A DNA stretch of 28,968 bases, taken from positions 1 through 28,968 of the IMG/VR virus record IMGVR_UViG_3300031521_000286; one strand, 5' to 3'. Position numbers and translations under genes: made by a program. Positions 635 through 28,646 of the stretch are shown one piece after another (position 1 is the first letter of the stretch; the number at the start of each line of letters is the position of its first letter). The DNA comes from a virus. The notes under the pieces were generated by a model. The model saw nothing but the letters and a program-made list of their open reading frames with translations, did not search any database and had not been told where the DNA came from.

Positions 635-640
635 AAAATA

Positions 641-672
641 TTTGGTAGTTTGAAATATTTGTATTATCTTTG
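641..672 (+). promoter_or_regulatory. Bacteroidetes-type vegetative promoter
   Basis: TTTG at 641-644 and TATCTTTG at 665-672 are separated by 20 bp, matching the known Bacteroidetes consensus TTTG/TAnnTTTG. It lies 29 bases upstream of the ATG at 702. A near-identical copy lies at 26792-26823. Confidence 0.8.
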
Positions 673-701
673 TCCATTATTAATAATTAAACAAATTAAA
701 A

Positions 702-1362: not shown

Positions 1363-1578
1363 ATGTTAGAAAAGAAAATAAATTTAGATGAAATAATTAA
1401 TATATGTATTAATAAAGATTATGAATCAAAATATAACAACATATGTAAAGATTCTATGTTAGAATTTGGTAAACAACTTCTTGAATTAGCTTGTGAAAAC
1501 GCAGATATAGACTATGAAGGTGGTATACCTGGTATTGATAAACAAACAATCAGAAACACTATTAAACAAGTAGAATAA
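1363..1578 (+). CDS. Hypothetical protein, 71 aa; paralogue of the preceding gene
   Basis: The frame is open further upstream, but that part overlaps the preceding gene; the ATG at 1363 gives MLEKKINLDEI, which aligns with the start of the 1029 protein and leaves a 7-base gap. SMLEFGKQLLELACENA and DKQTIRNTIKQVE match the paralogue. It is shorter, lacking the His/Asp-rich insert. Function unknown. It is the last gene before a candidate structured RNA and terminator. Confidence 0.7.
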   Translation: MLEKKINLDEIINICINKDYESKYNNICKDSMLEFGKQLLELACENADIDYEGGIPGIDKQTIRNTIKQVE

Positions 1579-1581
1579 AAT

Positions 1582-1715
1582 ATTATGTTACTGACCACAT
1601 TATATGGAAAGTAGACCAATGGACATTATGTGATTAATGGTTGCAGTATATTGGATGCGCACTTCTTTCTTGTAACGTAATTTTCCACCACTTATTTAAT
1701 AAGTGGTGGGTTTTT
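1582..1715 (+). ncRNA. Candidate structured RNA ending in a terminator
   Basis: This gap carries no convincing ORF and is clearly richer in G+C (about 37% over 1591-1680) than its surroundings. Positions 1582-1591 can pair with 1672-1681 (10 bp, one G-U), closing a region of about 80 nt. Inside it 1596-1603 can pair with 1625-1632 (7 of 8 bp), and 1643-1645 with 1656-1658. The closed domain is followed directly by the terminator at 1685-1715. It could be a small phage RNA or the structured 3' end of the upstream mRNA. No known RNA family is recognised, and it does not fold as a tRNA. Confidence 0.3.
1685..1715 (+). terminator. Rho-independent terminator
   Basis: A 10-bp perfect stem (CCACCACTTA at 1685-1694 with TAAGTGGTGG at 1700-1709), a TTTAA loop and then GTTTTT. 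It ends the unit begun at 641. Its T-run merges into the late-type promoter motif of the next gene. Confidence 0.9.
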
Positions 1716-1730
1716 ATATATAATAAAAAT
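1711..1730 (+). promoter_or_regulatory. Late-type promoter motif
   Basis: TTTTTATATATAATAAAAAT lies 12 bases upstream of the ATG at 1743 and directly follows the terminator stem. The same motif precedes several virion genes in this window. Confidence 0.5.
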
Positions 1731-1742
1731 AAAAATAAAATT

Positions 1743-2243
1743 ATGATTAAAAAATTTCATGAAATGTTTGAATCATTCGAACAAGTAACAAATGAAACAT
1801 ATGAAGATTTCAAAAATTCAATAATAACAATGGATGAATTTATAGATAATCTAAAAATAAAAGTAGATGTAAGATCAAATATTTTTTATCATTTTAGTCT
1901 ATCAGTATACGGATTTAAATTTATTAATTCCGCACCATGTTTAAAATATGACACAGATGATTATATTTTAAATAAAATAATATTACCAAGAAAATCACAT
2001 TGGTATGAACAATATGTTGGTAAAATGTTTGAACAATTTATTGAACAAAATGAAATAGTAAATGATGATACATCACTTAATGATAGATTATATGTATATG
2101 AAAGCGAACCATTAGAACCAAAAACTTTTAGTTATTTTAATTTTAGAAATGGTTCAATGAATTATGAAAAACTTAAATTAATTAAATTATTTGATAGAAT
2201 TGATATTCGTGGAAATGATAAATATCTATATAGAGTAAAATAA
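1743..2243 (+). CDS. Hypothetical protein with capsid-targeting-like N-terminus, 166 aa
   Basis: The frame is open back to 1641, but that extension would run through the terminator at 1685-1715; the ATG at 1743 sits just after the late-type promoter and is preferred. The protein begins MIKKFHEMFESFEQ, a looser version of the tag seen at 2261, 3793, 4225 and 4542. The remainder is mixed alpha/beta with no recognised domain. By analogy with T4 internal proteins, whose N-terminal propeptide directs them into the prohead and is cut by the gp21 protease, this may be an internal head protein. That role is inferred. Confidence 0.65.
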   Translation: MIKKFHEMFESFEQVTNETYEDFKNSIITMDEFIDNLKIKVDVRSNIFYHFSLSVYGFKFINSAPCLKYDTDDYILNKIILPRKSHWYEQYVGKMFEQFIEQNEIVNDDTSLNDRLYVYESEPLEPKTFSYFNFRNGSMNYEKLKLIKLFDRIDIRGNDKYLYRVK

Positions 2244-2260
2244 AAATAAATAATATAAAA

Positions 2261-2620
2261 ATGATAACAAAATATAACAATTTCATAAACGAAAATTCAA
2301 ATACTGATGATTTAGAATTAACTAATTTCAGACAATCTATTGAAGGATACGGTGAACCAAAAGAAAAATATTCATATTCTAATAATGAAGATGTGGATAA
2401 AACATATGATATAATAGAAAGTATTATATTTAATAATTTAGTTGCACAAAAAATGTTATCATATAATAATGAAGTTGATGCTGAATTGGATAATAACATT
2501 GAACAAGATTTTAAATTTTTAGATAGCGTTAATGCTGAATTTAGTAAAGGTGAATTAAATATTGGTGACACACCTAAAGATGTGTTTATTAAAGAATATA
2601 TTAAACATTCCATGAAATAA
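2261..2620 (+). CDS. Hypothetical protein with capsid-targeting-like N-terminus, 119 aa
   Basis: It starts 17 bases after the preceding gene and begins MITKYNNFINENSN. The I-N-E followed by N matches the (I/L)-x-E cut site known for the T4 prohead protease, 11 residues from the start. The mature part would be acidic and helical (DNNIEQDFKFLDSVNAEF, then FIKEYIKHSMK at the C-terminus). No catalytic motif is visible. Probably expressed late with 1743, from the same promoter. A packaged internal protein is the working guess. Confidence 0.65.
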   Translation: MITKYNNFINENSNTDDLELTNFRQSIEGYGEPKEKYSYSNNEDVDKTYDIIESIIFNNLVAQKMLSYNNEVDAELDNNIEQDFKFLDSVNAEFSKGELNIGDTPKDVFIKEYIKHSMK

Positions 2621-2621
2621 T

Positions 2622-2652
2622 TTTATTATTCCAAATATTTGTATTATCTTTG
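2622..2652 (+). promoter_or_regulatory. Bacteroidetes-type vegetative promoter
   Basis: TATCTTTG at 2645-2652 is preceded by AATATTTGTAT, as in the promoters at 641 and 26792. The upstream element is only TTTT/TTTA at 2621-2625. It lies 17 bases upstream of the ATG at 2670. Confidence 0.65.
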
Positions 2653-2669
2653 TATCAAATAAAAACAAT

Positions 2670-3179
2670 ATGGACAAACTAATATCAGAACTTAAAGACC
2701 AAACGGTTTCCCTTAAAGAACAATATATTGTTAAAACAATTGAATGGACTGAAAAGGATTATAAACGTAATGTTGAAAAAGCATCATGGAATGAAGAACA
2801 ATGGGCAAAACACTTAGGTGTTAGAACAAGAAATGTTGATGGATATATTTTATTTCATGATGGATTTTATAATACCAAGGAATCAAAGACATGGTATAAT
2901 GAAAGAAATACTGCTATTAGTATTAAAAATTTAGGATTAGAAAAATATACAGAAAAAAATGTCCGTGCTGCTAAGTTGCATTATGCAAATTCTATATTTA
3001 AATTAGCAGAACGAATTATAAAAAAAGGATTAGATAAAGATAATTTAACCCTTAAAACTACCCACATTGGTGTCAATATTGATACAAATATCACCGATGG
3101 TGCAAACACTGTGAAAGCGTTTACCATATTAGCTTACGGTGATGTTCAAAGACCACATTATAGATACTTAGTAAAATGA
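2670..3179 (+). CDS. Hypothetical protein, 169 aa
   Basis: First gene behind the host-type promoter at 2622-2652. The N-terminal part is charged and helical; residues about 48-75 are aromatic-rich (GYILFHDGFYNTKESKTWY); a helix (AKLHYANSIFKLAERIIKKG) follows; the C-terminus (THIGVNIDTNITDGANTVKA, ending RPHYRYLVK) is beta-rich. Nothing identifies a catalytic family, although the well-ordered C-terminal part suggests a conserved phage protein. Its TGA overlaps the ATG of the next gene, so 2670-3764 forms a tightly coupled three-gene unit. Confidence 0.75.
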   Translation: MDKLISELKDQTVSLKEQYIVKTIEWTEKDYKRNVEKASWNEEQWAKHLGVRTRNVDGYILFHDGFYNTKESKTWYNERNTAISIKNLGLEKYTEKNVRAAKLHYANSIFKLAERIIKKGLDKDNLTLKTTHIGVNIDTNITDGANTVKAFTILAYGDVQRPHYRYLVK

Positions 3180-3499
3180 AAGAATACTTAAAAAATAACA
3201 TATATTGGTTATTATTTATTAACCAATTTTTCATATATAAACTTGAAAAAAAGTACAATGTAAGTATTTATTTAGCAGAAAGTACTATATCAAGTCATAT
3301 GTTTTTAGATATTGAATTCGATTTTAAAGAAAGTGCATGGACTAAGGAAAATTTTAAACTTCATATTCATTCATCTAATGCTATCAATATGTTAAATGAT
3401 AGAGAATATTTAATATCAAATATAGAACATGTTGTAAATGACCGAATAAATAGTCGTATCGAAACAAATAAATTATATTCTAAAATAAATGGAAAATAA
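3176..3499 (+). CDS. Hypothetical protein, 107 aa
   Basis: The ATG overlaps the TGA of the preceding gene (ATGA), implying translational coupling. The N-terminus has a short hydrophobic stretch (IYWLLFINQFFIY, about residues 9-21) that is probably too short and too aromatic for a clear membrane anchor but could be peripheral. The rest is mixed alpha/beta with no known motif. It overlaps the following gene by 11 bases. Function unknown. Confidence 0.65.
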   Translation: MKEYLKNNIYWLLFINQFFIYKLEKKYNVSIYLAESTISSHMFLDIEFDFKESAWTKENFKLHIHSSNAINMLNDREYLISNIEHVVNDRINSRIETNKLYSKINGK

Positions 3500-3764
3500 T
3501 AAAAAAGAAATCGAAAAGAAAAATAGATTATTTGATTACCTTTTAAGTATTGGTTTTGATAAGCTATTTATAGTGGATATAAATATTCATCCACAACATT
3601 TAATAATTTTTAGACATATTGAATTTTATCGTGAACAGATTTTAGTTTTTCCTAATTATGATGAATTGCAATACTATAATTATGAAATAGCAATGAAATT
3701 TCTTGATGATTGGGGTTACTTAGATGATAATGAACTAAAAATATTTAAAAAATTATTTTTGTAA
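3489..3764 (+). CDS. Hypothetical protein, 91 aa
   Basis: It overlaps the end of the preceding gene by 11 bases in another frame; the start ATGGAAAATAATAAA is A-rich, as is usual for Bacteroidetes translation starts. The protein has a charged N-terminus, then alternating hydrophobic strands (DKLFIVDINIHPQHLIIF) and an acidic C-terminal helix. No family is recognised. It closes the three-gene unit that begins at 2670. Confidence 0.65.
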   Translation: MENNKKEIEKKNRLFDYLLSIGFDKLFIVDINIHPQHLIIFRHIEFYREQILVFPNYDELQYYNYEIAMKFLDDWGYLDDNELKIFKKLFL

Positions 3765-3792
3765 ATTAATATATAAAGAAAAAATATTATAG

Positions 3793-4221
3793 ATGAAACA
3801 TCTAAACACGTATAATGAAAATATGGATACACATTATGAAATTTTCAAAGGTGAAATAGAACGAATTGAAAGTATACCCGAAGATATTAAAATAAATGAT
3901 TATATAAAATCTCATTTATTTCAAAAAGGTGGAAATTATTATTTTGAAGATGACACTAATAGATTAATAAAAGTAGATATTCAGTTTGAAGGTGATGATA
4001 TTATTATTTTAAAAGGTGAAAAATATAAATTATCAAAGGATGCTATATATCCAGGTGCTATATATTTTGATTTACGATATCCTGATGAAATTAATGAATT
4101 ATCTGAACATAACCGTGATTCCCATGTAGATTTTGGATATAAACTGCATCTTAGTAATAATAAAGGTAGTAAATGGATAAACGCAAATGATTGTGACTTT
4201 GTTGCAAAAAAAATGAATTAA
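3793..4221 (+). CDS. Hypothetical protein with capsid-targeting-like N-terminus, 142 aa
   Basis: It begins MKHLNTYNENMDTHYEIF. The first seven residues are identical to those of the 4542 protein, while the rest differs, so the tag is shared without overall homology. Unlike its neighbours it lacks an I-N-E in register. The body is mostly beta (DDIIILKGEKYKLSKDAIYP, then GYKLHLSNNKGSKWINAN), suggesting a small barrel. It is first of a tight trio (gaps of 3 bases and then an ATGA overlap) with 4225 and 4542. An internal head protein is inferred from the tag only. Confidence 0.7.
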   Translation: MKHLNTYNENMDTHYEIFKGEIERIESIPEDIKINDYIKSHLFQKGGNYYFEDDTNRLIKVDIQFEGDDIIILKGEKYKLSKDAIYPGAIYFDLRYPDEINELSEHNRDSHVDFGYKLHLSNNKGSKWINANDCDFVAKKMN

Positions 4222-4224
4222 TAT

Positions 4225-4545
4225 ATGAAAAAAATACAAACATTTAATCAACATATAAATGAAAATAAAACAAATGATGAAACAACACCCGAATATTATT
4301 TAAAACAATATAGAGATGATGAAGTATTCACAAGTATTAAAAGAATAAAACGTGGTGAATTTAAAGATACCCAATATACAGGTCCTGAATATCGTGAATT
4401 ATTCATGGAATGGTATAATAAAATAAAACCATACTTAGATAATAATGATGAATGGGGTGCTTTGGAAATTTTAATTGATTGGGATGAAGAAACATTAGCA
4501 AAAATGGATATATACAGTTTAGTAAAAAAATATTTTAAAAAATGA
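4225..4545 (+). CDS. Hypothetical protein with capsid-targeting-like N-terminus, 106 aa
   Basis: It begins MKKIQTFNQHINENKT; I-N-E at residues 11-13 followed by N fits the T4 prohead-protease cut rule. The mature part is charged and helical, with YLKQYRDDEVFTSIKRIKRG and YRELFMEWYNKIKPYL, and ends in KKYFKK. It lies 3 bases after 3793-4221 and its TGA overlaps the next ATG, so the three tagged genes are translated together. No enzymatic motif is seen. Confidence 0.7.
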   Translation: MKKIQTFNQHINENKTNDETTPEYYLKQYRDDEVFTSIKRIKRGEFKDTQYTGPEYRELFMEWYNKIKPYLDNNDEWGALEILIDWDEETLAKMDIYSLVKKYFKK

Positions 4546-5120
4546 AACATTTAAACACATACACAGAACATATCAATGAATGGGTATCAAACCTTTCAAA
4601 AGTAAGAAACTTTCCAACTTACGGTGATAGTAATAGGTTTGATGATAAAAAAGCTATTAAAAAATTTGAAAATGAAACAGATTTTTATTCTATATACAAT
4701 GTAAACAAACATGATATTGGTAAATATCTTAATACATGGTTCAAAGGTAAACATTCAGAATTTAAAACTTATGTAACCAATGATGAAATGTGGACTGTTA
4801 AAAAAGTTGATAAAGATACAGCAATGCATTTGTATAATCAAGAATATAATCCTGTTTCAATTAGAATTGTTTGTCCAACAGGTGTAAAATTCATTAAAAA
4901 TGAACAAGGTGAAGATTTATATAATATGGTAGCAAGAATTCATTCAATTGATGATTCTTCATACGGTATATGGTTCAACCAAATACCATATTCAGAATTA
5001 GAAGATATTAGAACTAATATTATGAAATGGATGAACACTAAACCACTTTTAAACGGTGAAGAATTTTTAGATTATTGTGTTGAAATGGGTGCAGACCAAA
5101 ATGAAAAGGATTATAATTGA
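4542..5120 (+). CDS. Hypothetical protein with capsid-targeting-like N-terminus, 192 aa
   Basis: It begins MKHLNTYTEHINEWVSNL; I-N-E at residues 11-13 again fits the T4 prohead-protease rule. The body contains KKAIKKFENETDFYSIYNVN and later IRIVCPTGVKFIKNEQGEDL, with IHSIDDSSYGIWFNQIPYSE, and looks like a compact alpha/beta domain of unknown function. It is the last of the three-gene tagged unit and is followed by a weak hairpin (5121-5143) and a good terminator at 5161-5189. If packaged, it would enter the host with the DNA; its effect cannot be told from sequence. Confidence 0.7.
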   Translation: MKHLNTYTEHINEWVSNLSKVRNFPTYGDSNRFDDKKAIKKFENETDFYSIYNVNKHDIGKYLNTWFKGKHSEFKTYVTNDEMWTVKKVDKDTAMHLYNQEYNPVSIRIVCPTGVKFIKNEQGEDLYNMVARIHSIDDSSYGIWFNQIPYSELEDIRTNIMKWMNTKPLLNGEEFLDYCVEMGADQNEKDYN

Positions 5121-9513: not shown

Positions 9514-9834
9514 TTATAATTTGTTTTTTTCTAAAATGTTGTTACATTCTTCTAATTTTTGACAGGTTTGTAAAAACCCAACTTCTTCTAATATACTTAA
9601 TGAAAACCATTCACCATATGTTTTAAAATGATTGTATCGGTTATGTAATGTCCGTTCAATGGTTTGACCATGTTTTGTATCATACACTTCAACTATTCTT
9701 ATTTCATAAGGACATCCCGTTTGTAAAGATTTTATTCTTTCATTAACAGAACCTTTTGTTGAACCTATTTTATACAATCTGCAATCAGGTGTATCAATCT
9801 TCAATAAATAAATTTTGTTTTCGTACTTTTTCAA
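9514..9834 (-). CDS. T5orf172/GIY-YIG-family protein, 106 aa, TTG start
   Basis: Residues 8-80 carry the T5orf172/MUG113 pattern of the GIY-YIG nuclease superfamily: IYLLKI at the first strand, YKIGST at 21-26 in the GIY-YIG-like position, Arg33 in NERIKSLQTG, Glu60 in TIERTLHNRY as the probable metal ligand, and GEWFSL at 74-79. The domain fills the protein, so there is no separate DNA-recognition part. The frame has no in-frame ATG; TTG at 9834 is the likely start and lies behind a late-type promoter motif. It could be a homing-type nuclease, a DNA-processing nuclease or a host-directed factor. Confidence 0.75.
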   Translation of the reverse strand: MKKYENKIYLLKIDTPDCRLYKIGSTKGSVNERIKSLQTGCPYEIRIVEVYDTKHGQTIERTLHNRYNHFKTYGEWFSLSILEEVGFLQTCQKLEECNNILEKNKL

Positions 9835-10992: not shown

Positions 10993-13188
10993 ATGAAAGT
11001 AAGTAAAAAAGAATTAAAAGAAAAGTATATAAATATTCTTTCAACAGAAAGGGTAAACGAAATATTAGATAAAAATAATAAGGGTGAAAAAATGCACCTA
11101 AATGAAAAAATCTGGTTTGATAACAAAATAGGTGTTAGAAAAGCGGGTATGAAATTTGCATCAACAAGAACAGAAATAGAAGAATTTACTAAATGTAAAA
11201 TGGATATTCACTATTTTGCAAATAAATATTGTCAAATTAAAAGAGAAGATGGTACGATAGGTCCAATGAAATTACGTGATTATCAAAAAGATATGCTTAA
11301 CTTATATCAGAATAAGTATTCACTTCTAATGGCATCAAGACAAACAGGTAAGACGATATCAGCAGCAATAACAATGCTACATTATGCGTTATTCAATACG
11401 AATAAAGGTATTATGATTGTAGCAAATAAAGGTAAAACAGTAGAAGAAATTGTAGAAAAAATCAAGAGCATTTATATGTTACTTCCTTTCTTCTTAAAAC
11501 GTGGTATAATCAATTGGAATTTAACAAGTATTATTTTTGATAATGGTTGTAGAATTAAAACTGAAAAAAGAACAAAAGAACCCGCAATTGGTTTTACTAT
11601 TGATTTATTATACCTTGATGAATTTGCACACATTCCACAAAATATTATAGAACCATATTATACTGCTGTTATTCCAATTTTATCATCAGTAAATGATTCA
11701 AGACTTATTATTACATCTACCCCAAAAGGTATGAACTTATTCTATAAACTATTAATAGATGCTGAATTACCACATGATGATCCAAATTGGAATGGGTTCC
11801 ATGCACTACGTGTTTATTGGTGGCAGATTAAAGGTAGAAGGGATACTAAAATTTTCATGAATGAAGTTAAAATGAAGAAGTTTGGTATTACAAGAGATGA
11901 CATTACAAAGATATTAGATGATTATGGATGTGGGTACTATTTCCAGACAGAAGATAATTTTAAGGGTATATATGTAAGGTATGATAAAGATAATGACCAA
12001 TCTAAGCATGACTTTTTAATGCAACTGCTAATAAAAGATATACCAATAGTAGAATTTACCCGAATAACAAATTGGGAAAAACAACAAACTAAAATTATTG
12101 GTGGTGAAGATGGTTTCAAACAAGAATACGACCTTCAATTCCTAACAGGTAATAAATTATTATTTGATAGTGGATTCATTGAAGAATTATATGATGGAAA
12201 AATAGATATGGAATATCGTGACATTCCACAATTTAATAAACGTCTTAACTTTTCATATAATGGGTTACAATTTGTTAAAAATTGTCCTGAATTATTTAAT
12301 ATGGATGATATTAAGAAATATCAAATATTTATAGGTATTGACTTAGCAGAAGGGTTAGGTGAAGATTATAGTGTATTTAATATATTTAGGTTAGTTCCTA
12401 AAACAGATGATGAAATAAGACGTTACAAGAGTAAATTCCTTGATATTTATGATTATTTCAAATTAGAACAAATAGGTGTTTATAAAACAAATGTTTATTC
12501 TGTTGAACAGGTTGCACATGTTTTATATTTATTATCATTTGAATTCTTTAATTCTGATAATGTACGTATTGTTTTAGAAAGAAATACATATGGTGATACA
12601 ATGTTAGCATATATGCCAAATGTATTTAAACAAGATAATGATTTTTCAAATCACGTCTTCCTAAGATATAAAGCAAAAGCAGAAGATAAAATAGCTAAGA
12701 TGGGTCTTAAAGTTAATAGAAATAAAAAGATGTTAATTAAAGATTATCAAGTTAATTCGAAGAAGGGTAATATGTTATTACATGATAAATTTACTATTCA
12801 AGAAGTTACAACATTTACTAAACACGATACACCAAGTGGTGAAATTACGTTTAAATCAGAATCAGGACATGATGATTTAATTATGAGTGCTATTACTTTA
12901 TCAACAGCATTCTCACATATTGGTTATCGTGATGCTATTGATTCACTTATTGAATCAATGGGTAATAAATTAAGTAAATTAATTACCGATTCAAAAGATA
13001 AAATAAACGAAGAAACACCCGATATTAATACTATTAGAGCAAGTTATAGTAAAATATATAAAAAACCTGCTCAAAATAATAACAATACAAGTGGTTATAA
13101 TAGTAATAATCCTTTTAGCGGAAATAACCAAAATAATACCAATTTTGGATCAATGATGAAAAGACAATTTGGTAACTTAAATTATTAA
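10993..13188 (+). CDS. Terminase large subunit (TerL), packaging ATPase and nuclease, 731 aa
   Basis: This is the motor that translocates DNA into the prohead and cuts it. The ATPase domain has Walker A SRQTGKT at 115-121, Walker B LLYLDE at 205-210 with the catalytic Glu, and the coupling motif TSTPKG at 241-246. FKQEYDLQF at 375-383 matches the start of the nuclease domain in T4 gp17-type enzymes. The RNase H-like nuclease has Asp450 (IGIDLAEG), Glu529 (VLERNTYG) and Asp627/Asp628 (GHDDLIMS). About 130 residues separate TSTPKG from QEYD, longer than in T4 gp17, so there is an insert near residues 285-365. The C-terminus is an Asn-rich low-complexity tail (about 690-715). Confidence 0.97.
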   Translation: MKVSKKELKEKYINILSTERVNEILDKNNKGEKMHLNEKIWFDNKIGVRKAGMKFASTRTEIEEFTKCKMDIHYFANKYCQIKREDGTIGPMKLRDYQKDMLNLYQNKYSLLMASRQTGKTISAAITMLHYALFNTNKGIMIVANKGKTVEEIVEKIKSIYMLLPFFLKRGIINWNLTSIIFDNGCRIKTEKRTKEPAIGFTIDLLYLDEFAHIPQNIIEPYYTAVIPILSSVNDSRLIITSTPKGMNLFYKLLIDAELPHDDPNWNGFHALRVYWWQIKGRRDTKIFMNEVKMKKFGITRDDITKILDDYGCGYYFQTEDNFKGIYVRYDKDNDQSKHDFLMQLLIKDIPIVEFTRITNWEKQQTKIIGGEDGFKQEYDLQFLTGNKLLFDSGFIEELYDGKIDMEYRDIPQFNKRLNFSYNGLQFVKNCPELFNMDDIKKYQIFIGIDLAEGLGEDYSVFNIFRLVPKTDDEIRRYKSKFLDIYDYFKLEQIGVYKTNVYSVEQVAHVLYLLSFEFFNSDNVRIVLERNTYGDTMLAYMPNVFKQDNDFSNHVFLRYKAKAEDKIAKMGLKVNRNKKMLIKDYQVNSKKGNMLLHDKFTIQEVTTFTKHDTPSGEITFKSESGHDDLIMSAITLSTAFSHIGYRDAIDSLIESMGNKLSKLITDSKDKINEETPDINTIRASYSKIYKKPAQNNNNTSGYNSNNPFSGNNQNNTNFGSMMKRQFGNLNY

Positions 13189-15310: not shown

Positions 15311-15343
15311 AAAAATCCCTACCGAAAAAGTAGGGATTTTTTT
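15311..15343. terminator. Bidirectional terminator between convergent genes
   Basis: AAAAATCCCTAC (15311-15322) pairs perfectly with GTAGGGATTTTT (15330-15341) around a 7-base loop, with A and T tracts on both sides. It ends the + strand replication/packaging unit and the - strand fibre operon. Confidence 0.95.
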
Positions 15344-17552
15344 ATGTGTGTAAATATGTAAATGTTATTTTATCCACTGTTCCTAAATCATATCCTGATA
15401 CGGGTTTTGAATTAAAATAGTTCCAATATAATAAATCACCCATTTTAATATTTGTTAAAACTTTTTTGGTTCTTCCACCATCATCTGAAAAATAACATTC
15501 ACATGCTTCATCATTTCCTAAAACTGCTTGTAGACCATTAATAGTAATTAACACACCCGAATTTGTAGAATTACCCGATAATAAAGGTGTAATACACGCT
15601 AACCTATTAGTTGTAGTAGTATTCAATGCACTCATGTTTATATTAGTAGTTGAAATTTTACTTATATAATCAGTTGAATTTATTTCTGTAATTAAACCTT
15701 CTAAATATAAATCCCTTGCAATTCTATTTGATTCTTCAATAGATAACATTGTTGATAAACTTGTTTCACCTGATACATTCAAACCACTGAAATCAATAAG
15801 TGTTAAATCACCATTTTGTTTTCGTAAAGTTAAAATACTTCCTTCTAATTCACCATCATTATAAGCTGTCCTATCTTGTAAAGATACAATTTCAATAGTA
15901 TCATATGTACCATCTGTTTTTGTAAATTTAAGAAGTCCATTTACTTCATCAACATTAGCATCAATAAAAGAATTATTATCAATTATAAAACTCTTAATTA
16001 TTGTTTCTAAATCAACACTTATATATTCAACACCTTCTTTATAAAAAATTAAAGTATTTGTAGTATTATCAAAGGTAACATCAGTAAGTCCTGTTTCATT
16101 GTTGATAATTGTTGATAAATCAATAGTAGTTAAATCACCATTTTGTTTTTTAAATGTTAATATATTATCTTCTAATATAGCATCATTATAAGCTGTTCTA
16201 TCTTGTAAACTTGCAATTGTAATTATATCATATGTTCCATCAACCTTTCTAAATTTAAGAAGTCCATTTATTTCATCTACAATAACATCAACAAATGAAT
16301 TATTATCTATTATAAAATCATTTATAATAGATTGTAAATCAATTGTATTATATAATAAACCTTCTTTATAAAATGATAATATATTAGTACTTTCATCAAA
16401 TTGAACATCTGTAATACCAGTATTTATCATTAATAAACTTAAATCAATAGTTGTTAAATCCCCATTTTGTTTTTTAAATAATAACATACTATCATCCAAA
16501 TAAACATCGTTATATGCAGACCTATCTTGTAATTCAGTTAATGATATCGTATCTGTTGTTCCATTAGCACGTGTAAATATAAGTTGATTAGTTGTAAGAT
16601 CAACTTTTGAATCAACAAATGAATTATCAACATTTAATATAATATCATTTAAATCCAATGATAAATAAGATTTTCCATTTTTAAAGAATGTTAAAATAGT
16701 TGAATCTGAATCATATGTAACATCACTAACACCATTAGCTACATCACTAAGTGGACTTAAATCAATTTCGTAATTATTACCGTCATATCTATTAACTGCT
16801 AATTTTTTTGTTGATGGATTGAATTGTATATTAGTTATAGTTTCAGTTATCTGTAATGTACTTAAATCTAATCTTGCTTCACCAATCGTGTTTTTATTAA
16901 ACACAATATTATTATTTTCATAAACAGCACTGTTGAAATATTTATCGGAAACATCACTTACATACTTACCAGTATATTGAAAGAAAGATGCTTTAATTGA
17001 ACCCCAACCCAAATCTTTAGGTGTATATTCTTCTTGAAATGAAACAATACCCGAATAATAATTTACAACCCAATTTCCTTCTGTTATAAATATTTCCGAA
17101 CCTGGTGTTCCTGATGTAGCATCATCACCCCTATATAATCTTAGTCTATATCCATTACTAATTTCATTCGTTAATTTATTTACAACATCTTCGGGTGCAA
17201 TAAACGGTCTTATATAAATTCCACCATCAGATACTTTACCCCTTTTATCAATTGGATATGAATTATCATAATAAAAACCATTTTCTATATATGAATATGA
17301 TTGTCCATTTGATCCATATATTTGATCCAATGGTACATTAATATAATTTGTTACAGAAGAATTAATAATTGATTCATTTTTAGCATCAGTGTAAGTAGAT
17401 GCAAAGGATATTGCATCAGTCCATATTTCATTTGTTTTTACTGTATGTGATGATTTATATCTACTTTCATAAATATTTTGATTTGCTTCTGTCATCACTT
17501 TTCCAAGTGAATGAAAATATGCTACCTTTCTTTCATATGTTGAAGAATCCAT
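15342..17552 (-). CDS. Tail fibre-like protein with three 108-residue repeats, 736 aa
   Basis: Residues 1-230 form a unique N-terminal region, probably the attachment part. Residues 274-378, 379-487 and 488-592 are three repeats; each has a (T)DVxF...F(Y)KxG...IDL unit, NSF(V/I)D, LLKFxKxDGTYD, then LQDR(T/S)AYND and FKKQNGDLTTIDLS. These are strings of beta hairpins, as in fibre shafts. Residues 634-736 are a C-terminal module shared with the protein at 19359 (ING, ECYFSDDGG, GDLLYWN, PVSGYDL). It is the last gene of the minus-strand operon, 21 bases after 17574. A long trimeric fibre whose C-terminal module may bind the receptor is the likely role. Confidence 0.75.
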   Translation of the reverse strand: MDSSTYERKVAYFHSLGKVMTEANQNIYESRYKSSHTVKTNEIWTDAISFASTYTDAKNESIINSSVTNYINVPLDQIYGSNGQSYSYIENGFYYDNSYPIDKRGKVSDGGIYIRPFIAPEDVVNKLTNEISNGYRLRLYRGDDATSGTPGSEIFITEGNWVVNYYSGIVSFQEEYTPKDLGWGSIKASFFQYTGKYVSDVSDKYFNSAVYENNNIVFNKNTIGEARLDLSTLQITETITNIQFNPSTKKLAVNRYDGNNYEIDLSPLSDVANGVSDVTYDSDSTILTFFKNGKSYLSLDLNDIILNVDNSFVDSKVDLTTNQLIFTRANGTTDTISLTELQDRSAYNDVYLDDSMLLFKKQNGDLTTIDLSLLMINTGITDVQFDESTNILSFYKEGLLYNTIDLQSIINDFIIDNNSFVDVIVDEINGLLKFRKVDGTYDIITIASLQDRTAYNDAILEDNILTFKKQNGDLTTIDLSTIINNETGLTDVTFDNTTNTLIFYKEGVEYISVDLETIIKSFIIDNNSFIDANVDEVNGLLKFTKTDGTYDTIEIVSLQDRTAYNDGELEGSILTLRKQNGDLTLIDFSGLNVSGETSLSTMLSIEESNRIARDLYLEGLITEINSTDYISKISTTNINMSALNTTTTNRLACITPLLSGNSTNSGVLITINGLQAVLGNDEACECYFSDDGGRTKKVLTNIKMGDLLYWNYFNSKPVSGYDLGTVDKITFTYLHT
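15777..16733 (-). repeat. Three tandem repeats (about 105-109 codons) in the fibre gene
   Basis: The units run 16733-16419, 16418-16092 and 16091-15777 on the minus strand. The block coding for LQDRxAYND recurs at about 15854, 16181 and 16505 with a period of 324-327 bases, a multiple of three, so recombination between units would keep the frame. The two downstream units are most alike at the DNA level. Confidence 0.85.
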
Positions 17553-22076: not shown

Positions 22077-22367
22077 TTATTTTTTATTCATGAATTTTTC
22101 TAAATCTTCTTCTGTTATGTAATATTTACCTGCTGAATCTTCACCACCACCTAAAACAATTTTACCTGTTGCATCAACATTACTCCATGAATGATTTCTA
22201 AAATTTTTAAACATAAATCTTCTTTCTTCATCAGTAAGTTCTCTTTTAAAAGGTTCTACTGGTCTTGTGAATTTATCAAAACTTCTTTTAGGAAAACTTT
22301 CATTTTTAATACCCAATTCACTAAAATCACCACCAAAAAATTCTGTTATCATTTTAATATGTTTCAT
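22077..22367 (-). CDS. Hypothetical protein with tag-like N-terminus, 96 aa
   Basis: Begins MKHIKMITEFFGGDFSEL. MKHI resembles the start of the 3793 and 4542 proteins, and I-T-E at residues 7-9 or F-S-E at 15-17 could serve as prohead-protease sites. The remainder is basic, with SFPKRSFDKFTRPVEPFKRE, and ends in an acidic helix. It sits inside the minus-strand virion operon behind a late-type motif. It may be a head or baseplate component or another packaged protein; the tag match is weaker than in the left-hand cluster. Confidence 0.65.
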   Translation of the reverse strand: MKHIKMITEFFGGDFSELGIKNESFPKRSFDKFTRPVEPFKRELTDEERRFMFKNFRNHSWSNVDATGKIVLGGGEDSAGKYYITEEDLEKFMNKK

Positions 22368-26846: not shown

Positions 26847-28646
26847 ATGAGTATATTAACATCAATATTAGAAGTATCAGAAATTAATTTAAATAAGTTT
26901 AGAAACCCTGATTCAAATGAAGTATTACATGATAATCAAATTGAGTGTGCAGTTCGAATATTAAAACAATTTGATAACACTAAATACCCACGTGCTAATT
27001 ATATTGTAATAAAAGGATTTACACAAAGTGGTAAAACGGGTGTATTTACATCTTTGATAAATATAATCAATAATTTAAACAAATCAATACCTTGGAAAGA
27101 TCCGGTATTAAATATAAAAAAAATAGTATATATCACGGGTGATAATTCCAAAGCATTAACATCACAAACAAAAAAACGAACATTCGACCAAACATTTTCA
27201 GATGAATATAATGATGATGTAATTAATGTTATATTTGTTAAACAAAGTGATTGTACGAATGATTTGAAAGGTAAAGATATGAATCAAGTGCTTGGTGAAA
27301 ATTTTTCACTTGATAATACATTAATTTTTCTTGACGAAAGTCATTATGGTACAACTAATATAAAAAACAAAGTACCTAAATGGTTAGAATCATATGGTCT
27401 TGATTTGAAAAATAATAATAGTCTCCAAGAAAAAAATTCATATATAATATCTAATAGTGCAACACCATATCAAGAAATGGAAAGTGATATTGTATTATCA
27501 AAAGCGAGAATTATATTACATAAAGGTGAAGGATATGTTGGTATTTATGACTTTGCACCAAATATTATACCTGTCGATAGTCAATGGTCTAATAGGAATT
27601 CTTCTAAGGATTATCTGAGATGGAGTGGATTAATGCGGGAAACATACAATATGATTAAAGCAACTGGTGAAAATTTGTGTTCAATTGTTCGTATGAGTAT
27701 ATCAAACTATGAATTTCATAAATATATGATGAACTTATATTTTGATACAGAGGTTATTAATGTTTCAAACAATTCACTTAATTATAGAACAATGGAATCT
27801 ACTATAATTAGTTATTGTGAAACTGGTTTCAACCAATCATCTGGTAAATATTTAATGATTATTATTGTTGGTGGTTTACGTATGGGGATATCAATTGATA
27901 ATATTGTTAAAAATAAAATAAAAATGATTTATGATTATACTTCAACAGCTAAAGCTGTATGGACAACTGAACAAGGTCTTATTGGACGTATGACAGGTTA
28001 TCGTGAAGGTGATGCATGGAAAAATACCAAATTTTATATTAGAGGTGAACATTGGGATAAATTATCAGATTATTATTCTGATGTAAATAATGACGAATTA
28101 TTAACATTTAATACTCCCATTTCTTCTAAAAAAGTGGAAACAAAAATTTGGTCAGACGAAGAAGGATATGATGAATTAGATAGTAATATAATGATTGGTA
28201 TTGATATTATAAAAGATTATGAAAACATACATGATTCATTTGGAAGTGATATGATAAAAATATTTGGTGCTAAAAAATTCAAACAAATTTTATCAAAATA
28301 TACATCTGAAATAAGAAAATATTTAGAAAATAAAGATGTTTTTTTTAAAAATGCTTTAGTTATGGATCAACGAAAAAAACATACTAAAAATACATCATAT
28401 TCTTCTGAAAATTTCAATGCATCTGATTATCATAAGAAAGAATATTGTGATGAAAATATAGGAAGAAATGCTTATACGTATTCAGTTGATGACAGGGATA
28501 TTAATAATATTAAATTATTTGTTATTATAGGTGTGTTTAAATATTATAAGATAAAAAATAACACTGAAAAAATTCAATTCAACCCACTTGAAACTATGGA
28601 TACAAGTATAAAGGATACTGAAAAAATTGAATGTATACGTATATAA
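26847..28646 (+). CDS. SF2 helicase/translocase-like ATPase, 599 aa
   Basis: Motif I GFTQSGKTG at 57-65, a Ia-like VYITGDNSKALTSQT near 95, motif II LDESH at 162-166, motif III SNSATPY at 202-208, and a C-terminal RecA domain with VGGLRMGISID near 350 and motif VI QGLIGRMTGY at 376-385. This is a full superfamily 2 ATPase with a DESH box; the GGLRMGxS...Q-GRMxGY ending resembles the Z1/type III-like restriction translocase group. The last 180 residues are unrecognised. It has its own host-type promoter. It might be a phage DNA helicase or, with the DUF262/HNH gene, part of a defence-like cassette. Confidence 0.8.
   Translation: MSILTSILEVSEINLNKFRNPDSNEVLHDNQIECAVRILKQFDNTKYPRANYIVIKGFTQSGKTGVFTSLINIINNLNKSIPWKDPVLNIKKIVYITGDNSKALTSQTKKRTFDQTFSDEYNDDVINVIFVKQSDCTNDLKGKDMNQVLGENFSLDNTLIFLDESHYGTTNIKNKVPKWLESYGLDLKNNNSLQEKNSYIISNSATPYQEMESDIVLSKARIILHKGEGYVGIYDFAPNIIPVDSQWSNRNSSKDYLRWSGLMRETYNMIKATGENLCSIVRMSISNYEFHKYMMNLYFDTEVINVSNNSLNYRTMESTIISYCETGFNQSSGKYLMIIIVGGLRMGISIDNIVKNKIKMIYDYTSTAKAVWTTEQGLIGRMTGYREGDAWKNTKFYIRGEHWDKLSDYYSDVNNDELLTFNTPISSKKVETKIWSDEEGYDELDSNIMIGIDIIKDYENIHDSFGSDMIKIFGAKKFKQILSKYTSEIRKYLENKDVFFKNALVMDQRKKHTKNTSYSSENFNASDYHKKEYCDENIGRNAYTYSVDDRDINNIKLFVIIGVFKYYKIKNNTEKIQFNPLETMDTSIKDTEKIECIRI

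Follow-up and report, generated by a model that had tools for sequence, protein, structure and literature searches.

Several small genes near one end of a virus fragment encode proteins that begin alike and whose bodies show no likeness to one another. The question raised by this locus is whether these beginnings are capsid-targeting propeptides of the kind found in bacteriophage T4, and whether the proteins behind them are delivered into the host. The window, by which we mean the whole stretch of DNA analysed, is a virus fragment of 28,968 bases (IMG/VR record IMGVR_UViG_3300031521_000286, positions 1 to 28,968). An earlier note had assigned a common tag to six of its genes, which are named here by their start positions. 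The tag held for 2261, 4225 and 4542; only its front half was found in 3793, 22077 was marginal, and 1743 was close to chance. As set out below, the tags are probably targeting propeptides of the T4 type, a reading drawn from sequence comparison.

Tagged genes in the window and placement of their phage

2261..2620, + strand: gene 2261, 119 amino acids, tagged; body with no Pfam domain and no phage relative
2261..2293, + strand: tag of 2261, MITKYNNFINE; predicted cut after Glu11; profile score 13.0
3793..4221, + strand: gene 3793, 142 amino acids, partial tag; no phage relative
3793..3831, + strand: partial tag of 3793, MKHLNTYNENMDT; front half only, without the I-x-E site; P = 0.003
4225..4545, + strand: gene 4225, 106 amino acids, tagged; body with no Pfam domain and no phage relative
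4225..4263, + strand: tag of 4225, MKKIQTFNQHINE; predicted cut after Glu13; profile score 22.3
4542..5120, + strand: gene 4542, 192 amino acids, tagged; N-terminal helix, flexible linker and conserved body
4542..4580, + strand: tag of 4542, MKHLNTYTEHINE; predicted cut after Glu13; profile score 22.9
22077..22367, − strand: gene 22077, 96 amino acids, marginal candidate, MKHIKMITEFFGG; without cleavage site
10993..13188, + strand: TerL (terminase large subunit), PHROG terminase E 8e-46; used to place the phage

The scores come from a tag profile trained on relatives of the phage only, with 9,304 internal methionines as the control. The best of these methionines scored 12.4, below the starts of 2261, 4225 and 4542, all three of which contain the core [Y/F]-x-x-[F/H]-I-N-E. 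The spacing from the aromatic residue to I-N-E is constant, and the distance of the core from the start differs by two residues; I-N-E, which had been described as equally placed in three proteins, occupies residues 11 to 13 in 4225 and 4542 and residues 9 to 11 in 2261. Gene 3793 starts with MKHLNTY, identical to residues 1 to 7 of 4542, via synonymous codon differences (CAT CTA AAC ACG TAT in 3793 versus CAT TTA AAC ACA TAC in 4542). The value for 22077 (P = 0.0008 per gene before correction) is marginal across about 36 genes. Gene 1743 (MIKKFHEMFESFE) was dropped as a member, with P = 0.04 against internal methionines and neither the core nor the cleavage site.

The bodies of the tagged window genes are mutually unrelated, as the earlier note had it (best E 0.03, not significant), and no Pfam domains were found in them. 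Searches with tblastn for relatives in phages returned none for 3793, 4225, 1743 or 2261. A literature search, most subscription journals being outside its coverage, found no paper on the tag sequences.

The best matches of the window TerL were records of 634 to 735 kb, at 41 to 47% identity in pairwise matches. The source study of these records put all five of its genomes larger than 634 kb in the Mahaphage clade, with Bacteroidetes as predicted hosts (PMC7162821). A weak gp25 baseplate match in the window is consistent with a T4-like myovirus. Megablast of the window against phages gave no match, an Rfam search found nothing, and no protease, scaffold or capsid genes were found within the 29 kb. 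Two intergenic stretches (window 640-690 and 2630-2670) contain TTTGTATTATCTTTGT, which resembles a Bacteroidetes-type promoter and fits the predicted host phylum.

Likeness to the T4 targeting sequence and enrichment at gene starts

The T4 internal head proteins IPII and IPIII start with MKTYQEFIAE. Targeting depends mainly on residues 4 and 7 of this T4 tag and processing on residues 8 and 10, with gp21 cleaving behind L/I-x-E (PMC9026906). The aligned counterparts of these four residues in the 13-residue tag are Y/F7, F/H10, I/L11 and E13, and 2261, 4225 and 4542 match all four, with His for Phe in two of them. The tags are thus like the T4 capsid-targeting sequence (CTS) of IPI, IPII and IPIII in being N-terminal, 10 to 13 residues long, built on a [Y/F]-x-x-F-I-x-E core and followed by unrelated bodies. 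In T4 the likeness extends to an S77 protease and cleavage after L/I-x-E, whereas here the site is read from sequence. The tags differ from the T4 CTS in usually being three residues longer (MK-YIK-TYEDFINE versus MK-TYQEFIAE), in having Asn in place of Ala before Glu and in permitting His at the second aromatic position. They also differ in number, with 20 to 55 tagged genes per huge-phage genome versus three to a few. Giant phages of the phiKZ/SPN3US type likewise have many head proteins that are cut after a short Glu-ending motif, by a gp21-related protease, and sent to the host (PMC5694885). However, their propeptides are mostly long (>100 residues in several SPN3US proteins) and have no common short tag, and these phages are no close relatives of the window phage.

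A grammar derived from T4, which in T4 itself matched IPII, IPIII and gp61.1, was applied to four huge-phage relatives of 462 to 735 kb. It fitted 55 gene starts in LR756501, 27 in LR756502, 21 in LR756504 and 23 in LR756500, compared with about 2 matches per genome among shuffled N-termini, an enrichment of about 10- to 27-fold. Internal methionines matched in only 1 to 9 of 1,559 to 3,374 cases in these relatives, and the reversed strict pattern gave zero matches in every genome searched. The motif, its restriction to gene starts and its enrichment in the relatives are direct observations. When N-termini were picked by residues 1 to 7 only, so that the cleavage site was not built in by the selection, Phi-x-E was enriched at positions 9 and 11 (40 each versus about 7 in shuffles). 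In many N-termini, however, the front half of the tag was not followed by a cleavage site. Tags in LR756501 are mostly of 10 to 11 residues in the T4 layout (MKTFNQFINE, MKNFTRFINE). Some relatives that have S77 showed no tag enrichment, PTm1 being one (1 match versus 0.6 expected).

Among the pattern matches listed, at least 135 of 159 in viral contigs were at gene starts, versus at least 15 of 119 in bacterial genomes; likewise among the matches listed, at least 24 of 120 viral loci held several tag matches, and no bacterial locus held more than one. A 34-kb viral contig (L259:5517-14600) has 15 consecutive tagged genes (MKHIKTFExFINE) with mostly unrelated bodies. Neighboring tandem genes in this array have near-identical tags, in which the amino acids are kept and the codons changed synonymously, and one pair has bodies that are 78% identical. 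The array includes a GH24 lysozyme-like gene, and a TerL-like fragment lies nearby. In T4, too, ipII and ipIII adjoin the lysozyme gene e. No cultured relatives of the L259 cargo for which proteomics might be possible were found.

The bodies behind tags in the relatives, among which about two false positives per genome are possible, include leucine-rich repeat (LRR) proteins, a DUF2201 metallopeptidase-VWA protein, an HNH nuclease, a T4 Rnl1-type RNA ligase, a methyltransferase, a radical SAM protein, a DeoC aldolase and PPK2. The PPK2 (LR756501 152222-153436) and the Rnl1-type RNA ligase (LR756502 491690-492961) begin with the tag and are candidate injected enzymes. Pfam gave no support for the idea that one tagged protein of LR756504 (LYHWTSKLEG) might be an ADP-ribosyltransferase.

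Orthologs of the 4542 body were present in LR756501, LR756500 and five viral contigs; the latter were found by a three-sequence profile, and single-protein scans of viral contigs for 4542 and 3793 gave no match. Their N-termini were MENLNDYKQFNE and MKISKFEKFVE (each followed by N), MKIKFATFNE (followed by S) and a degenerate MKHLKLFEELT, and one ortholog was tagless and began at the conserved body. One body thus occurs with different tags or with none, a modularity that is seen directly: the tag comes and goes independently of the body behind it. It follows that packaging of the 4542 body is not universal and that at least one relative does not package the protein or packages it differently. 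In L185, two neighbors of the 4542 ortholog are also tagged. In an AF2 model of 4542 (mean pLDDT 78.9), the N-terminal helix is of low confidence, the linker is flexible and the body is well predicted; a fold search with the model returned nothing significant.

Protease, capsid junction and scaffold-like repeats

An S77 domain was found in all seven T4-like relatives searched, three scoring above the Pfam cut-off and the rest more weakly, and an alignment of these proteases has the HP and SSR (catalytic-region) motifs of gp21 conserved. Among the tagged contigs searched, five of six had S77, namely, the five larger than 230 kb. All seven relatives also have a gp23-type capsid protein. Its N terminus has a segment like the K-W-x-P propeptide of T4 and then, in most relatives near residue 43, Phi-x-E followed by N or S, where the capsid protein is predicted to be cut. 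This junction, observed directly, matches that of the tags. Because this part of the alignment is so gapped, the T4 capsid cut falls in a different column.

The protease of the four largest phages runs on into about 10 to 13 repeats of 14 residues. The repeat unit, Y-S-E-Y-[I/L]-A-E-N-[L/V]-D-K-N-I-A (YSEYIAE...), resembles the T4 tag, and each repeat holds a possible Phi-x-E cut site.

L015-L018, L433: S77 domain with C-terminal repeats, YSEYIAENLDKNIA; proteases of LR756504, LR756501, LR756502, LR745206 and a 482-kb contig

The 482-kb contig, which was found by the tag alone, has 13 repeats. Other contigs have degenerate repeats in which, as in two window tags, His takes the second aromatic position. 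Fusions of a maturation protease to a scaffold are known from P2 gpO and the herpesviruses. The arrangement here is like these in that a maturation protease is joined to a scaffold-like C-terminal part, and unlike them in that the S77 domain precedes tandem 14-residue repeats resembling a cargo tag.

A profile made from the repeats only put the IPII and IPIII tags at the top of the T4 proteome (17.0; next, 11.9); with the cleavage residues omitted, the T4 tag ranked third among 953 Phi-x-E sites. N-termini showed an excess of upstream similarity to the repeat in LR756501 (p 2e-9), LR756502 (1e-5) and LR756500 (2e-5), and the test was not significant in LR756504 (p 0.15). The strict repeat-only profile did not separate N-termini in LR756502, whereas a version restricted to Phi-x-E sites did, so repeat mimicry constitutes moderate evidence only. 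The similarity favors, without proving, the idea that the tag may correspond to one scaffold unit.

Two other loci in LR756501 have related features. Positions 619760-620383 encode three scaffold-like repeats (KYAEYLAEQIDKSINYQEYIAEQLDKSIQYSEYVAE) within otherwise unrelated sequence. An 84-amino-acid protein (L163:8957-9211) joins a tag to a copy of the arm with which the phage's own major capsid protein begins (E 9e-11).

Proposed packaging route, its alternatives and other window genes

We hypothesize that the tag folds into a short amphipathic helix with an aromatic/aliphatic face made up of [I/L]4, [Y/F]7, [F/H]10 and [I/L]11. This face would dock on the scaffold inside the prohead, probably as a mimic of a single unit of the 14-residue repeat array that huge relatives have fused to their S77 protease. 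That protease would then cut after I-N-E, a cleavage that the capsid protein and scaffold repeats would likewise undergo; the mature body would stay in the head and would likely enter the host together with the DNA. The proposal of the earlier note, that the tag is a T4-type targeting propeptide with an (I/L)-x-E site, gains support from the tag enrichment, the S77 protease and the capsid junction in the relatives and from the modularity of 4542. We infer, with good support, that the tagged proteins would be packaged and cut. Their injection is plausible, and we think it somewhat probable that they are delivered into the host; docking, an effector function and an anti-defense role would be further inferences.

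One alternative is that packaging and cleavage do occur, and that the tagged proteins then work in head assembly or in condensing DNA within the capsid rather than as delivered effectors. T4 IPIII affects head assembly (PMC9026906), and the 84-amino-acid protein with the capsid arm appears structural. However, the RNA ligase, PPK2, methyltransferase and HNH nuclease, and the diversity of the bodies in general, are unlike assembly factors, and in T4 the internal proteins and Alt, which have such a propeptide, enter the host by ejection (PMC9026906); we regard a purely structural role as unlikely. The tag might instead be an uncut helix that docks proteins on another phage structure or on a compartment of the infected cell. 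The many N-termini with an amphipathic front half and without Phi-x-E would fit, as would the metabolic enzymes; PPK2, DeoC and radical SAM proteins are unusual head cargo and count against packaging. This explanation is more doubtful still, given that the T4 targeting and processing residues align, that Phi-x-E is enriched at a fixed place and that the capsid protein has the same junction.

Descent or recombination could also have left old paralogs with similar 5' ends and a functionless tag, as the L259 tandem neighbors with their near-identical tags and the one pair of similar bodies might suggest. This is very improbable in view of the conservation of amino acids through synonymous changes, both in 3793 and 4542 and in L259, the unrelated bodies and the orthologous body that has different tags or none across phages. 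Chance likeness in AT-rich small genes holds for 1743 and perhaps for 22077, but the shuffle, internal-methionine and reversed-pattern controls already refute it for 2261, 4225 and 4542, and as a general account it is negligible.

If the tags are targeting propeptides, then the dozens of tagged proteins in each of the largest phages suggest that huge phages probably ship many ready-made proteins, enzymes included, into the bacterium along with their DNA. More tentatively, huge T4-like phages may have a general system of cargo loading, in which the prohead protease is joined to a scaffold of tag-like tandem repeats, a single repeat-like unit at the N terminus gives any protein entry to the core and is cut, and 20 to 55 or more proteins per phage, among them enzymes, are injected as an early arsenal. 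A simple N-terminal rule would list unannotated huge-phage proteins as candidate injected effectors, and the idea that the tag imitates a scaffold repeat offers a testable model of cargo recruitment.

Elsewhere in the window, a protein at 24811-26526 matches the PADLOC models HEC-06 and Orf5 (E 6e-22) and is followed by a helicase-like protein at 26847-28646; the two could be a phage-borne defense or anti-defense pair. A small protein at 9514-9834 (− strand) has a weak match to PADLOC PDC-S57 and by eye resembles a GIY-YIG type nuclease. The protein at 15342-17552 (− strand) has internal repeats (LKFxKxDGTYDxI...SLQDRTAYND) and is probably a fiber.
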